NCBI RefSeq assembly: GCF_020164585.1 | Contig: NZ_JAIQZF010000003.1 | Span: forward strand, 1-64,000 | From: Psychroflexus curvus | GTDB taxonomy: Bacteria > Bacteroidota > Bacteroidia > Flavobacteriales > Flavobacteriaceae | Length of the DNA: 64,000 bases | Direction: 5' to 3' | Part shown: positions 1-16,155 of the stretch, one piece after another | Layout of the letters: each line of letters starts with the position of its first letter | Numbering within the stretch: the first letter of the stretch is position 1 | Position numbers and translations under genes: made by a program | Notes under the pieces: model-generated | Told to the model about the DNA's origin: nothing | The model's input: the letters and a program-made list of their open reading frames with translations, nothing else | The model's database searches: none

Positions 1-11
1 GCACTAAGATT

Positions 12-110
<99 letters not shown>

Positions 111-120
<10 letters not shown>

Positions 121-687
121 TTATAGAGAAAACCCTGACTTTTTAGTCAGGGTTTTTTTTTGTTTAAAAAAAATGCCCTTGGCTTAGTGAATGAGCTAAG
201 ATGACCCTCATATAAACGATCATCAGCGTGGAAGAGCCTGCCCGAACGCCAGCCTGTTTCAATTCTGTCAGGTTACCTTCAGCTGCGGGCGTGTAGGTCG
301 CCGCCTTCTTTATAGAGAAAACCCTGACTTTTTAGTCGGGGTTTTTTTTGTTTAAAAAATGTTCTTGGCTTAGTGAATGAGCTAAGATGATCTCTCTATA
401 AACTATCATCAGCGTGGAAGAGCCTGCCCGAACGCCGACCTGTTTCAATTTTGTCAGGTCACCTTCAGCTGCGGGCGGGTAGGTCGCCGCCTTCTTTATA
501 GAAAAACCCTGACTTTTTAGTCAGGGTTTTTTTTGTTTAAAAAAATGCCCTTGGCTTAGTAAATGAGCCAAGATGACTCTCATATAAACGATCATCAGCG
601 TGGAAGAGCCTGCCCGAACGCCGACCTGTTTCAATTCTGTCAGGTCACCTTCAGCTGCGGGCGGTTTGGTCGCCGCCTTCTTTATAG
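111..687 (+). repeat. Three tandem 186-189 bp units carrying copies of the 5S rRNA 3' tail
   Basis: The string GCCGCCTTCTTTATAG, the 3' strand of 5S helix I plus flank, recurs at 111, 300, 486 and 672. Each unit holds this tail, a terminator hairpin, a hairpin CTTGGCT...AGCYAAG, a stem GATGA...TCATC, the decamer CGTGGAAGAG that also occurs in the 5S gene (95-104), a 56-nt insert (237-292, 423-478, 609-664) and then the next tail. The insert contains the stem GACCTG...CAGGTC and the outer pairing GCCCG...CGGGC. Differences between copies mostly keep pairing, for example AGCTAAG against AGCCAAG and GCCTG/CAGGT against ACCTG/CAGGT. No coding frame is evident. This array fills most of the space between 5S and mutS. 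Confidence 0.85.
130..161 (+). terminator. Intrinsic terminator after 5S rRNA
   Basis: AAACCCTGACT pairs with AGTCAGGGTTT over 11 bp around a TTTT loop and runs into a tract of eight or more T. Near-copies occur in the next two repeat units at 319-350 (one G-U pair in the stem) and 504-535, so transcription of the array should stop repeatedly. Confidence 0.85.
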
Positions 688-725
688 AAAAACCCTTCAT
701 TACACATGTAATGAAGGGTTTTTTA
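688..725 (+). terminator. Last terminator of the 5S-tail array
   Basis: AACCCTTCATTAC (691-703) pairs with GTAATGAAGGGTT (708-720) and is followed by T6. Its stem sequence differs from the three upstream terminators although the preceding tail is the same, as expected if this is the original 5S terminator displaced to the right by insertion of the units. Confidence 0.85.
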
Positions 726-792
726 TTTTTACTGCATTTTGACTTTCTTATCTGATTTCCTTCTACAATTTAGTATTTTAGCTTAAAAAATT

Positions 793-3411
793 GTGGCCAA
801 ATCTAAGTCTCCTAAGTCAACCCCTTTAATGAAACAGTACAATACTATCAAGGATAAATATCCTGATGCGATGTTGTTATTTAGAGTCGGGGATTTCTAC
901 GAAACCTTTGGAGAAGATGCCGTTGCCGCCTCCCGCATACTCAATATTGTACTTACCAATCGGAATAATGGCGGAGAGCGTTCAGAACTTGCCGGTTTTC
1001 CTCATCATTCCCTTAATACCTATCTTCCGAAACTGGTAAAAGCAGGGCTGAGAGTGGCTATCTGTGATCAGCTCGAAGATCCAAAGCAAACCAAAACCAT
1101 CGTTAAACGCGGTGTTACCGAATTAATTACGCCCGGCGTATCCTTTAATGACGATGTCTTGTCACGAAATGACAATAATTTTCTGTGTTCCATTGTCCTC
1201 GGCCCAAAAGATAACTATGGAATATCCTTTCTTGATGTTTCCACAGGTGAGTTTTTAGTATCTGAAGGCAGTCTTGAAGATGTAAATAAACTCATTCAGA
1301 ATTTTTCACCAAGCGAGATTTTGATTTCAAAAAAACAAAAGACTTTACTGGCCGAACAGCTGGGAAGCCAGCAACCTTATTTCTACCTCGAAGACTGGGT
1401 GTTCAAATTTGATTTTTCCAATAACCTTATCAATTCCCATTTCAAAACCACATCAGTTAAAGGTTTTGGAATACAGGATTATAATGAAGGTCTGATTGCT
1501 TCCGGAGCTATTCTTCATTATTTGTCTGAAACCAATCACGCACAGCTTCAGCATATCAATAACTTATCCCGAATTCCTAAAGAAGACTATGTCTGGATGG
1601 ATAAGTTCACCATTCGAAATCTCGAATTATACCAGTCCACGACTTCAGAAGGCGTTTCGCTTATCGACATCATAGATAAGACGATTTCGGCCATGGGCAG
1701 CCGACTCTTAAAACGCTGGCTTGCCTTTCCGCTCAAGAATCAGTATAAAATTAATCAACGCCTTGAAACGGTTAGCTTTTTAAAAAAGAATCAAAGCCTT
1801 CAACATGAAATCAGATCTTATTTAAAAGAGATCAATGACCTGGAACGCCTGGTATCCAAGGTGTCGACTCAAAAAATTAACCCGCGTGAGCTTTTACAGT
1901 TAAAAAATTCCCTGGATATTATCGCTTCATGTCAGAAGACTTTAGAAAAATCCGGACATGAGTCTTTGGTGACCATCGCCGATCATCTCAATCCCTGCGA
2001 TGTGTTAAGATCCAAAATTGAGTCGTCGATTTCAGAAGAGCCTCCAGTCAATATTCTAAAAGGAAATGCGATTAAATCAGGTTACTCTGATGAGCTGGAC
2101 GAATACCGAAAAATCGCTTTTTCCGGGCACGACTACCTCGATGAAATGCTTGACGCCGAATCCAAAAATACTGGGATTCCAAGTTTAAAGATTGGCAGTA
2201 ATAATGTTTATGGCTATTATTTCGAAGTCAGACATGCCCATAAAGATAAAGTGCCGACCGACTGGACGAGAAAACAAACCTTGGTCAATGCCGAACGCTA
2301 CATAACCGAAGAATTAAAAGTTTACGAGGAGAAAATTTTATCTGCGGAAGAGAAAATTTCAGGTTTGGAGCAAAAATTATTTCAGGAGCTTGTCATTTGG
2401 ACTCAGGATTATATGAAAGTGATTCAGCAAAATGCCTTTCAGATCGCACAGCTGGATTGCCTTTCCGGATTTGCTCAGCTTGCTCTTGAACACAATTATG
2501 CCAAACCCCTTATTGATGAAGGCTTCGAATTATCTATTAAAGAGGGAAGACATCCAGTCATTGAAATGCAGCTCAAAGCTGAGGAAGAGTACATCAGTAA
2601 TGACCTTTTCCTGGATCAGGAAAGCAACCAGATCATCATGATCACCGGACCGAACATGAGTGGTAAGTCGGCTCTGTTAAGGCAAACCGCTCTTATTGTT
2701 TTACTGGCACAAATGGGAAGTTTTGTACCGGCTACTTCCGCAGAAATCGGTCTGGTAGATAAGATATTTACTCGCGTTGGCGCCAGTGATAATATTTCGA
2801 TGGGCGAATCTACATTCATGGTAGAGATGAACGAATCGGCGAGTATATTGAATAACTTGTCTAGCAGAAGTCTTGTTCTTTTGGATGAAATCGGACGCGG
2901 AACCAGTACTTACGACGGGATTTCGATTGCCTGGGCCATAGCTGAGTTTCTGCATGAACATCCCAGTAAGGCTAAAACATTATTTGCAACGCATTACCAC
3001 GAGCTTAATGAAATGTCCAAGCAATTTGACAGGATCAAAAATTTCAACGTTTCTGTCAAGGAATTAAAGGATAAAGTTTTGTTTCTGAGAAAGCTCGTTC
3101 CTGGAGGAAGCGAGCATAGTTTTGGGATTCATGTGGCTAAAATGGCGGGTATGCCACAGTATGTGATTCAAAAAGCAAATACTATTTTAAAGAAACTGGA
3201 ATCCCTTAGGGATACCAATGACGACTCTTCCTCTCTAAAACAAGCCGTTCAGCCTGAGCCACAATTGAGTTTTTATAATATGGATGATCCTCTGCTTGAG
3301 CAGATTAAGGATGAGATTTTGAGACTTGATATCGATACACTGACTCCGGTTGAAGCCTTAATGAAACTTAATGAAATCAAACGCTTGATAACGCCAAAAG
3401 CCAGGAAGTAA
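793..3411 (+). CDS. mutS: DNA mismatch repair protein MutS
   Basis: MutS recognises mismatches and small loops and recruits MutL for strand-directed repair. The 872-residue product is of normal length. The N-terminal mismatch-reading motif GDFYETF (Phe-x-Glu) is near residues 33-39, and the ATPase has Walker A GPNMSGKS near 619-626, then FTRVGASDNI, STFMVEM, the Walker B/signature region DEIGRGTSTYDG and ATHYHEL. The start is GTG at 793; the reading MAKSKSPK followed by TPLMKQY matches the usual N terminus and no ATG lies nearby. The gene stands alone between the 5S array and a tRNA pair, with no exact TAnnTTTG box seen upstream. Confidence 0.98.
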   Translation: MAKSKSPKSTPLMKQYNTIKDKYPDAMLLFRVGDFYETFGEDAVAASRILNIVLTNRNNGGERSELAGFPHHSLNTYLPKLVKAGLRVAICDQLEDPKQTKTIVKRGVTELITPGVSFNDDVLSRNDNNFLCSIVLGPKDNYGISFLDVSTGEFLVSEGSLEDVNKLIQNFSPSEILISKKQKTLLAEQLGSQQPYFYLEDWVFKFDFSNNLINSHFKTTSVKGFGIQDYNEGLIASGAILHYLSETNHAQLQHINNLSRIPKEDYVWMDKFTIRNLELYQSTTSEGVSLIDIIDKTISAMGSRLLKRWLAFPLKNQYKINQRLETVSFLKKNQSLQHEIRSYLKEINDLERLVSKVSTQKINPRELLQLKNSLDIIASCQKTLEKSGHESLVTIADHLNPCDVLRSKIESSISEEPPVNILKGNAIKSGYSDELDEYRKIAFSGHDYLDEMLDAESKNTGIPSLKIGSNNVYGYYFEVRHAHKDKVPTDWTRKQTLVNAERYITEELKVYEEKILSAEEKISGLEQKLFQELVIWTQDYMKVIQQNAFQIAQLDCLSGFAQLALEHNYAKPLIDEGFELSIKEGRHPVIEMQLKAEEEYISNDLFLDQESNQIIMITGPNMSGKSALLRQTALIVLLAQMGSFVPATSAEIGLVDKIFTRVGASDNISMGESTFMVEMNESASILNNLSSRSLVLLDEIGRGTSTYDGISIAWAIAEFLHEHPSKAKTLFATHYHELNEMSKQFDRIKNFNVSVKELKDKVLFLRKLVPGGSEHSFGIHVAKMAGMPQYVIQKANTILKKLESLRDTNDDSSSLKQAVQPEPQLSFYNMDDPLLEQIKDEILRLDIDTLTPVEALMKLNEIKRLITPKARK

Positions 3412-3637: not shown

Positions 3638-3722
3638 GCTCGGATGGTGGAATTGGTAGACACGTTGGACTTAAAATCCAATGACCATTGCGGTCGTGCG
3701 GGTTCAAGTCCCGCTCCGAGTA
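3638..3722 (+). tRNA. tRNA-Leu (anticodon TAA)
   Basis: The 85-nt type II tRNA has acceptor GCTCGGA/TCCGAGT (one G-U pair), anticodon stem TTGGA/TCCAA with loop CTTAAAA giving anticodon TAA, a long variable arm and T-arm GCGGG TTCAAGT CCCGC. It reads UUA, a common codon in this AT-rich genome. It follows tRNA-Gly in the same transcript. Confidence 0.96.
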
Positions 3723-3723
3723 C

Positions 3724-3754
3724 AAACCCTTTGAGAAATCAAAGGGTTTTTTTA
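3724..3754 (+). terminator. Intrinsic terminator after the tRNA pair
   Basis: AAACCCTTTGA pairs with TCAAAGGGTTT around GAAA and runs into T7. It separates the tRNAs from the methyltransferase gene starting 13 bp later, which therefore probably depends on read-through or a weak local promoter. Confidence 0.8.
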
Positions 3755-3766
3755 TTAAAACAAGTT

Positions 3767-4306
3767 ATGCCTAGAAAATTAAAAAATAGCGAACTCGTCC
3801 GTAAAACCGATGATGAGTTTAAAGCCTCGTCTAAGACACCTTTGATTTTAATTTTGGACAACATCAGAAGTCTTAATAATATTGGTTCTGTGTTTCGAAC
3901 CGCCGATGCGTTTTTGATAGAGAAGATTTATTTGTGTGGTATTACGGCATCACCACCTCATAAAGATATTCAAAAAACAGCTTTGGGAGCCACTCAAACA
4001 GTAGACTGGTCTCATAGAGAAAGTACGCTGGCACTCATTCAGGAATTAAAAGAAAGCGGTGTTCAGGTCATGTCCGTTGAACAAGCTGAAGATTCAGTTT
4101 CTCTGGAGGAATTTCAACCAGACCAAAATTTAACCTATGCTTTTGTTTTCGGAAATGAAGTGAAAGGTGTGCAGCAAGCTGTTGTTGATGCGTCTGATGC
4201 CGTTCTGGAAATCCCTCAGCTTGGCACCAAACATTCTTTGAATATTTCAGTTACTGCAGGGGTGTGCGTATGGGACTTCATGTCGAAAACTCAGTTTAAG
4301 CCCTAA
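3767..4306 (+). CDS. SpoU/TrmH-family RNA 2'-O-methyltransferase
   Basis: The protein should methylate ribose 2'-OH of tRNA or rRNA using S-adenosylmethionine. The three SPOUT motifs are present: LDNIRSLNNIGSVFRTADAF (residues ~29-48), FVFGNEVKGV (~126-135) and IPQLGTKHSLNISVTAGV (~149-166), which form the trefoil knot. The product is 179 aa. The ATG at 3767 is preferred because any earlier in-frame start would fall in tRNA-Leu. It sits beside tRNA-Leu(UAA), but the motifs fit the general TrmH group better than TrmL, so the substrate is open. Its stop codon overlaps the uvrB stop codon (CTAA shared by both strands). Confidence 0.88.
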   Translation: MPRKLKNSELVRKTDDEFKASSKTPLILILDNIRSLNNIGSVFRTADAFLIEKIYLCGITASPPHKDIQKTALGATQTVDWSHRESTLALIQELKESGVQVMSVEQAEDSVSLEEFQPDQNLTYAFVFGNEVKGVQQAVVDASDAVLEIPQLGTKHSLNISVTAGVCVWDFMSKTQFKP

Positions 4307-15990: not shown

Positions 15991-16027
15991 AACATCTGTG
16001 GATTTAGAAATAAAAGAATATTATTCC

Positions 16028-16035
16028 TATGTTTG
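16028..16035 (+). promoter_or_regulatory. Probable -7 box of the trp operon
   Basis: TATGTTTG is an exact TAnnTTTG match directly upstream of the trp leader peptide. The inferred start near 16040 coincides with the leader ATG, which would make the leader mRNA leaderless or nearly so; a promoter further upstream is the alternative. No good -33 box was seen. Confidence 0.45.
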
Positions 16036-16039
16036 TAAC

Positions 16040-16096
16040 ATGTTTAATAACAAAAACAATTCTTGGTGGTGGTCTTTATTACGTCAAACGTCGTGA
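16040..16096 (+). CDS. trpL: trp operon leader peptide with three consecutive Trp codons
   Basis: An 18-codon frame reads MFNNKNNSWWWSLLRQTS and ends with TGA. Residues 9-11 are encoded by TGG TGG TGG, far above chance for a short peptide. It lies 87 bp upstream of trpE and just before a terminator. The stop codon falls inside a segment (16090-16097) complementary to the terminator loop and 3' arm, the geometry needed for ribosome-mediated attenuation. Peptides of this kind precede trp operons in other bacteria, including Bacteroidetes. Confidence 0.85.
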   Translation: MFNNKNNSWWWSLLRQTS

Positions 16097-16155
16097 TGTA
16101 GATCCTGCTATGTATATATTTCATAAAGGCTTGTCTATCACGACAGGCCTTTTTT
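16090..16155 (+). promoter_or_regulatory. trp attenuator: alternative antiterminator and terminator
   Basis: Terminator: AAAGGCTTGTC (16125-16135) pairs with GACAGGCCTTT (16142-16152, one G-U pair) around TATCAC and is followed by T6. Antiterminator: GTCGTGAT (16090-16097) is perfectly complementary to ATCACGAC (16137-16144), which covers the loop and the start of the 3' arm. A ribosome stalled at the Trp codons (16064-16072) leaves 16090-16097 free to pair and block termination; one that reaches the stop codon covers it and lets the terminator form. The mechanism is inferred from these pairings. Confidence 0.82.

Follow-up and report, generated by a model that had tools for sequence, protein, structure and literature searches.

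Tandem 5S rRNA-end remnants with folded inserts in Psychroflexus curvus, and a covarying insert family at 5S gene ends of other Flavobacteriaceae

The window analysed here, the whole stretch of 64,000 nucleotides from Psychroflexus curvus, opens with the last part of an rRNA operon, and its base 1 is base 1 of contig C23. A normal 5S rRNA gene is followed on its 3' side by three units of 186-189 bp each (Table 1). Each unit opens with a copied 5S tail, continues with two hairpins, a terminator and then a leader, and closes with CGTGGAAGAG and its 56-nt insert, after which the 5S tail comes again; in each unit, GTGGAAGAG is separated from the following 5S tail by the insert. Alignment to E. coli rrfA places the insertion point in the 5S sequence at GAG|TAGG, corresponding to 102|103 of E. 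coli 5S. TRF reports a single tandem array at 104-696 (period 186, 3.2 copies, 93% matches), a repeat search gives spacings of 186/186 and 189/186, and the tail after the third insert reads TTTGGTC. The preliminary description of this DNA had listed tandem units built from the 5S tail, the positions of the decamer, inserts of exactly 56 nt and the TTTGGTC of the third copy, and reading, TRF and repeat search all confirm them. The array is followed on its 3' side by a long ORF (793-3411), which we take to be mutS. Among the listed ORFs of at least 50 aa, none within the array exceeds 59 aa, and no integrase gene lies inside the units. Besides 5S, no Rfam family reaches its gathering score within the array; at relaxed limits the best sub-threshold match is MicX (36.8 bits against 75), and we judge the sub-threshold matches to be mostly terminator-like. 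Elsewhere in the window, Rfam identifies a Bacteroidete tryptophan peptide leader RNA at 16021-16135 (59.5 bits, gathering score 49), and an ORF at 3644-4306, presumably encoding a SpoU-like methylase, begins within a tRNA (3638-3722), the true gene start probably lying further in.

Table 1. Features of the 5S gene and of the array behind it (window positions)
Feature	Position	Strand	Details
5S rRNA gene	12-120	+	Rfam RF00001, 82.5 bits; normal gene
Unit 1	104-292	+	5S tail, terminator 129-161, leader hairpin 178-200, CGTGGAAGAG 227-236, insert 237-292
Unit 2	293-478	+	5S tail, terminator 318-350, leader hairpin 364-386, CGTGGAAGAG 413-422, insert 423-478
Unit 3	479-664	+	5S tail, terminator 502-534, leader hairpin 550-572, CGTGGAAGAG 599-608, insert 609-664
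A-type insert, copy 1	237-292	+	outer stem CCTGCCCG with CGGGCG.., inner stem around 12-nt loop; fold computed on the type of units 2/3
A-type insert, copy 2	423-478	+	
A-type insert, copy 3	609-664	+	
Final 5S tail copy (TTTGGTCGCCGCC...) and displaced native terminator TTCATTAC...GTAATGAA	665-724	+	

The terminators of the three units share one common stem, and the terminator at 687-724 is unrelated to them, as had been described before; all four are far more stable than shuffled sequences (z from -6.6 to -8.9). A pattern scan picked up only the terminator at 687-724, together with four short stems involving the 5S tail. With the TAGG that follows it, the type of insert found in units 2 and 3 reaches a folding energy of -27.0 kcal/mol (z -3.0; equalled by 2 of 200 shuffles). 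Longer stretches (166-292 and 227-310) are not more stable than shuffles (z -0.6 and -0.2), and whole single units folded against shuffles show no excess stability. At 473-492 and 659-678, the 3' end of the insert (GGGCGG) can alternatively pair with the 5S tail (CCGCCT) instead of with its own outer stem.

The array is present at three places in its own genome (G000), namely the window, a second contig (C1) that has three units in full and a fourth cut short, and a third (C32) with one unit and a decayed piece; all three 5S loci found in this Psychroflexus-group genome thus carry units, one of the 5S genes being cut by a contig start. Seven inserts could be read, each of exactly 56 nt. It had been claimed that substitutions between copies preserve the stems, and this holds only in part. 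The insert stem is GACCTG/CAGGTC in four of the seven copies and AGCCTG/CAGGTT, with a wobble pair, in one, but in the remaining two (AGCCTG/CAGGTC) a pair is broken. Likewise, the leaders opposite CTTGGCT read AGCTAAG in 5/9 copies and AGCCAAG in 2/9, a one-sided G-U/G-C change, but a pair is broken in 1/9, and another 1/9 is decayed. In P. sediminis the leader stem appears disrupted by eye. Compensation among the copies of this genome is therefore weak, and strong covariation is seen only in the wider insert family.

To relate the array to other genomes, 60 of them were searched with it, its own included. Matches occur in 25, those in relatives mainly through tails and terminators, and no relative's match in this search covers an insert. 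Among 38 5S loci fetched from the genus, 7 are filled, 23 are empty and 8 are unreadable, a census of fetched 5S ends only, with further 5S places of the genus lying outside it. Units occur in 4 of the 27 genomes of the genus, several of their 5S ends being unreadable. P. sediminis (G024), for example, has two filled loci and one empty locus, and over 132 bp its 5S tail, terminator, leader and GTGGAAGAG are 88-89% identical to those of the window, the match stopping 2 bp past the break point. At the 5S gene linked to mutS, itself recognised by its start, four genomes (G025, G005, G008 and G015) have an empty site, P. sediminis has a different insert and the window is filled three times. In the empty loci of G025, G008 and G015, a terminator of the TTCATTAC type, like the one that closes the window array, stands immediately behind the 5S gene; that of G005 has a different stem. 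When aligned with the empty mutS-linked ortholog of G008, the window matches on both sides of a 562-bp insertion. In G175, filled and empty 5S loci with near-identical flanks differ by 149 bp at GAG|TAGG, their only large difference. Direct repeats of the gene end stand at both unit borders. The earlier proposals, that relatives would hold empty sites with this terminator directly behind 5S and that the original 5S terminator has been pushed to the right, thus agree with what is found, including at the mutS-linked ortholog: the native terminator lies at the far end of the array, and the same kind lies directly behind 5S at empty sites.

A longer, different insert occupies the same point of the 5S sequence in P. 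sediminis, Mesohalobacter halotolerans, a Flavobacteriaceae MAG, Jejuia pallidilutea and Hyunsoonleella jejuensis, and one exact pattern for it found 6 loci among 84,980 genomes. A covariance model (R1) matched 12 of 397 genomes of the family. In nine of them (G080, G181, G196, G230, G260, G269, G321, G369 and G420) the insert follows 5S or precedes a 5S tail; the other three are G332, G254 and G342, taken up below. A pattern for tails that lack the preceding G matched four of the 397: G181, which was already known, G175, G230 and G321. Searches within genera around G230 (9 genomes), G175 (3) and G369 (12) yielded further filled and empty sites. The match of a BLAST search with the B query in G196 was confirmed afterwards by the model; its matches in G070 and G175:C11 lie away from 5S and are read as chance. 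The covariance-model search in flavobacterial genomes suggested in the preliminary description thus brought out a structured insert family at the 5S tails of other genera. Eight genera, including that of the window, carry a family insert at 5S, and a ninth (G175) carries a different one. Tandem forms occur in G260 (75-bp period) and G230 (167-bp spacing), and some tails or units look decayed (G444, G196 and the C32 array).

In most relatives the insert consists of a hairpin (H1) and an imperfect rod. The rods of Jejuia and of three Psychroflexus-group copies are 86-88% identical, and the pairs of the rod covary in a hand alignment of 10 sequences. Covariation was counted over 20 pairs in a MAFFT alignment of 16 sequences from 7 genera, which leaves out the copies of G230, G444, G175, G269, G332, G254 and G321:C3, near-duplicates and the window's own inserts; an extra hairpin (H2), which MAFFT misplaced, was removed from two sequences of this alignment and from three in earlier ones. 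In the rod, 91.3% of 320 cells are paired, against a shuffled mean of 79.0, a percentage favoured by the derivation of the structure from the same sequences. The double changes are better evidence. Both sides have changed in 11 of the 20 pairs, against 7.4 in shuffles (reached by 4 of 500), and there are 50 double-changed cells against 15.6 (reached by 0 of 500). Slid controls give at most 42% paired cells, 5 pairs and 11 cells. Further pair types are at the level of shuffles (23 versus 22.9). Within the rod, a 2x2 UC/UC internal loop is nearly invariant, and a script detects H1 in 16 of 19 copies, of which one (G196) is doubtful. The rod pairs are kept in G080, G196 and G321, where the 5S tail is mutated. 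Mismatches of the G-T and A-C kinds stand at 17:6, or at 8:6 when pair 4-60 is left aside; because of the latter ratio, there is no clear strand preference, and neither RNA nor DNA is favoured. Eight rods were folded against shuffles, giving z near -3 for three, near -1.6 for two and between -0.7 and +1.3 for three.

The window's own insert (A) is shorter than those of the relatives. It is unmatched by a model of the rod that lacks the 5S tail (R2) and was seen in no other searched genome. One A copy aligns weakly with the H2 part of the P. sediminis insert (CCAGCCT...CTGGCAGG...CAGCTG), with 9 of 2000 shuffles scoring as well; for two others, the remainder of the three tried among the seven copies, 131 and 35 of 2000 did so. 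Against G011, the numbers of shuffles as good were 31, 448 and 23, and against G002, whose insert lacks H2, they were 472-668. From its position at the break point and this weak alignment, we suggest with moderate confidence that the A insert is a shortened, diverged member of the family.

Model R2 was run on 20 chosen genomes (E up to 0.1) and matched in 17, with none in the genome of the window, G444 or G175. Eight weak matches in G342 were rejected as family members: they belong to another dispersed palindrome with a similar loop. These eight long palindromes of G342 (GTTATTGTTAATGCTGCGCTACGCTTGCATTAACAATAAC; loci L131, L135, L139, L143 and L145-L148) are followed by a further conserved stretch and resemble a miniature mobile element. 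The other 29 matches lie in 16 of the 20 genomes, 25 of them in 5S arrays, a count that includes four of G230 and one of G002 whose 5S is off the contig. The four outside 5S arrays are two in G254, one in G332 and one in G420. The G332 copy (L129, 1501-1560) sits beside tRNA-Ile in a 16S-23S spacer and runs antisense to the rRNA (16S end and tRNA-Ala recognised by eye). In G254 (L130, 1519-1925), a weaker set of 4.8 tandem copies of a hairpin-plus-rod repeat related to the insert (period 83) lies behind an ordinary gene, away from rRNA genes. The isolated G420 copy (C1:2280818, L142) was considered as proof of independent mobility and rejected, as it starts exactly at the apparent end of an insertion sequence; it looks like a piece of an array displaced by that element. 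A 113-aa ORF beside it has no Pfam match. Elsewhere in G420 (L124), two neighbouring transposase-like ORFs stand directly behind the 5S array, and by eye the element end there resembles that at L142, the local alignment of the two ends covering no more than about 30 bp. The suggestion that the 3' ends of stable RNAs in general are targeted is not supported by this distribution, with 25 of the 29 matches at 5S arrays and one in the 16S-23S spacer.

Several candidate occurrences further afield were discarded. A class-wide match in G565 (28 bits, 1 of 395 genomes) is read as chance. Sixteen viral contigs match a 19-nt pattern, and none of them matches model R1 at E up to 1. The phage matches of the window query consist of a single terminator-like stretch of 36 nt in 22 records, and plasmids gave none. 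The family unit is unmatched in phages and plasmids, and the H1-plus-rod pattern is unmatched in viral contigs.

We read the architecture and boundaries of the units, their filled and empty alleles, their tandem copies and the covarying fold of the family as the traces of a cassette of 5S remnants whose spread, amplification and loss come about through recombination between 5S tails and whose insert is selected for its fold, and we give this reading about an even chance of being right. On this view, the array consists of remnants of 5S rRNA ends, placed distally in the rRNA operon, and one cassette runs from a copied 5S 3' end with terminator through a short leader to a second 5S piece opened at GAG|TAGG by the folded insert. 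Because each cassette begins and ends with a 5S tail, it can come and go by recombination. Ordinary recombination, with the 5S body and the 18-22 bp tails as its sites, may bring the cassette in, multiply it among rRNA operons, exchange it between species and remove it, an intact 5S gene with a terminator always being left behind. Tail recombination accounts for where the units lie, for the displaced terminator, for the arrays and for their patchy occurrence, but does not by itself explain the fold, since a purely neutral passenger should not covary, and selection on the folded insert is therefore needed; the insert may persist in the role of a small RNA made by read-through, or of a single DNA strand that folds. 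Exact deletion between the tail repeats would leave identical empty sites; gain and loss would both fit these alleles. The copies in the 16S-23S spacer (G332) and away from rRNA genes (G254) count against this explanation.

The preliminary description had considered a small structured RNA or a non-autonomous element. A structured family at 5S is indeed present, but no mobilising enzyme was found in the scan for PF01797, and ordinary recombination through the 18-22 bp tails would suffice for precise gain, loss and amplification. If the insert were a gene for a small structured RNA within the rRNA operon, transcription reading through the 5S terminator would produce short RNAs, composed of H1, rod, 5S tail and terminator, with a role in the cell. 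The covarying fold with its nearly constant internal loop, the recurrence of H1, the similarity between the Jejuia and Psychroflexus-group rods and the terminator-like hairpin in which the units read finish are all consistent with such a gene. However, window positions 1-800 hold no sigma-70-like promoter (0 versus 0.9 in shuffles) and, on either strand, no TAnnTTTG box, presumably the promoter type of Bacteroidetes; the mismatches show no clear strand preference, no Rfam family other than 5S reaches its gathering score, and a strictly functional RNA is disfavoured by the patchy presence within the genus. We regard an RNA gene as rather doubtful. A site-specific mini-element that is moved by an enzyme (a tyrosine recombinase, or an HUH/Y1 enzyme as for REP/RAYT), lands at GAG|TAGG and restores the 5S end would account for the fixed site, the flanking direct repeats, the empty and filled alleles and the serial copies, and the rod pairs retained beside mutated 5S tails point the same way. 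Yet dispersed copies are few, phages, plasmids and viral contigs gave no match to the family, and 9 of 22 insert-bearing or empty-site genomes scanned carry the insert without a PF01797 match. Mobilisation of the REP/RAYT kind was specifically considered and set low: PF01797 occurs in 13 of 23 genomes, and the 30 of 39 PF01797 loci that were fetched (flanks up to 1.5 kb) contain a single motif hit, in the L161 gene region, without a rod. An enzyme-moved element is, in our view, quite unlikely. Ordinary decay, in which pieces of 5S pseudogenes were duplicated in tandem and interrupted by chance palindromes without function, agrees with the pseudogene interpretation in the part of PMC7812874 drawn on here and with the decayed look of some tails and units; we consider it very improbable, as the pairs changed on both sides and the double-changed cells far exceed the shuffled and slid controls.

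Returning to the recombining cassette with a selected insert, we tentatively suggest that the 5S remnants of Flavobacteriaceae may be alive, in the sense of a new structured element with a conserved, covarying fold and a nearly fixed UC/UC internal loop, for which the 5S end would serve as a landing pad that repairs itself, able to travel from one rRNA operon or genus to another and acting as a folded RNA or a single DNA strand. What appear to be scraps of 5S genes are probably kept for their shape. Inserts in 5S remnants have so far been ascribed to pseudogenes, and covariation across genera implies selection on the fold in this family at least. The empty and filled alleles define the exact unit for testing, and recombination between gene-end repeats offers small sequences a simple route by which to colonise the ends of rRNA operons, leaving 5S unharmed.

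Some integrative elements restore the 3' end of an RNA gene, which stays intact while its end is repeated directly at each border. The units resemble them in such repeats at their borders; unlike them, units of about 150-245 nt are too short for an integrase gene. REP/RAYT (TnpA-REP) elements are short palindromes that, in the portions of PMC6006769 and PMC3733652 drawn on here, sometimes have unusual structures in Bacteroidetes, whereas the family insert has few copies per genome, lies mostly at 5S and showed no linked PF01797 gene among the loci fetched. A further parallel is the Halococcus morrhuae 5S expansion segment, which the consulted part of PMC7812874 places at 104.1-105 beside loop E, within the only 5S rRNA of the cell, and describes as V-shaped in halobacteria, with a short hairpin and a long arm whose stems and internal loops do not branch. 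As far as descriptions can be likened, the insert studied here shares both the place beside loop E (here 102|103) and the V shape, and inserts in 5S tails are a possible source of the expansion segments in some 5S rRNAs.

The closest described system, from the part of PMC7812874 that we draw on, is the set of 5S remnants with insertions in Peptococcaceae and Pseudoalteromonadaceae, where the remnants may be pseudogenes and are scattered, with horizontal transfer suspected. Full-text searches of open-licence papers brought up no other description of such arrays, as judged by title or abstract start, and the words 'Flavobacter' and 'Bacteroidetes' are absent from the main text of PMC7812874. The unit architecture, 5S remnants with inserts and a terminator before each, is real here but already described in other phyla. 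As in that part of the paper, the remnants follow a normal 5S gene where the rRNA operon ends (at three 5S places in the window's genome), occur in multiple copies, each with a terminator before it, lack one or both 5S ends and have a large insertion in the 5S-like core. In some species of that account the same insertion is also found in an expanded complete 5S, which is not a required feature; the two complete 5S genes of the window's genome have normal length, and no expanded complete 5S was noticed among the 5S loci read by eye. In Pseudoalteromonas piscicida NZ_CP074588, a 5S 3' part, a terminator and a spacer recur in tandem with a 216-bp period, the last with inserts, and Pseudoalteromonas sp. 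NC201 has a related array. Unlike in Pseudoalteromonas, much less of the 5S is left here, only GTGGAAGAG and the tail, or about 10 nt before the break and about 17-22 nt after it. Beyond what that part of PMC7812874 describes, the present case adds a Flavobacteriaceae host, a covarying insert family in eight genera and precise empty alleles.
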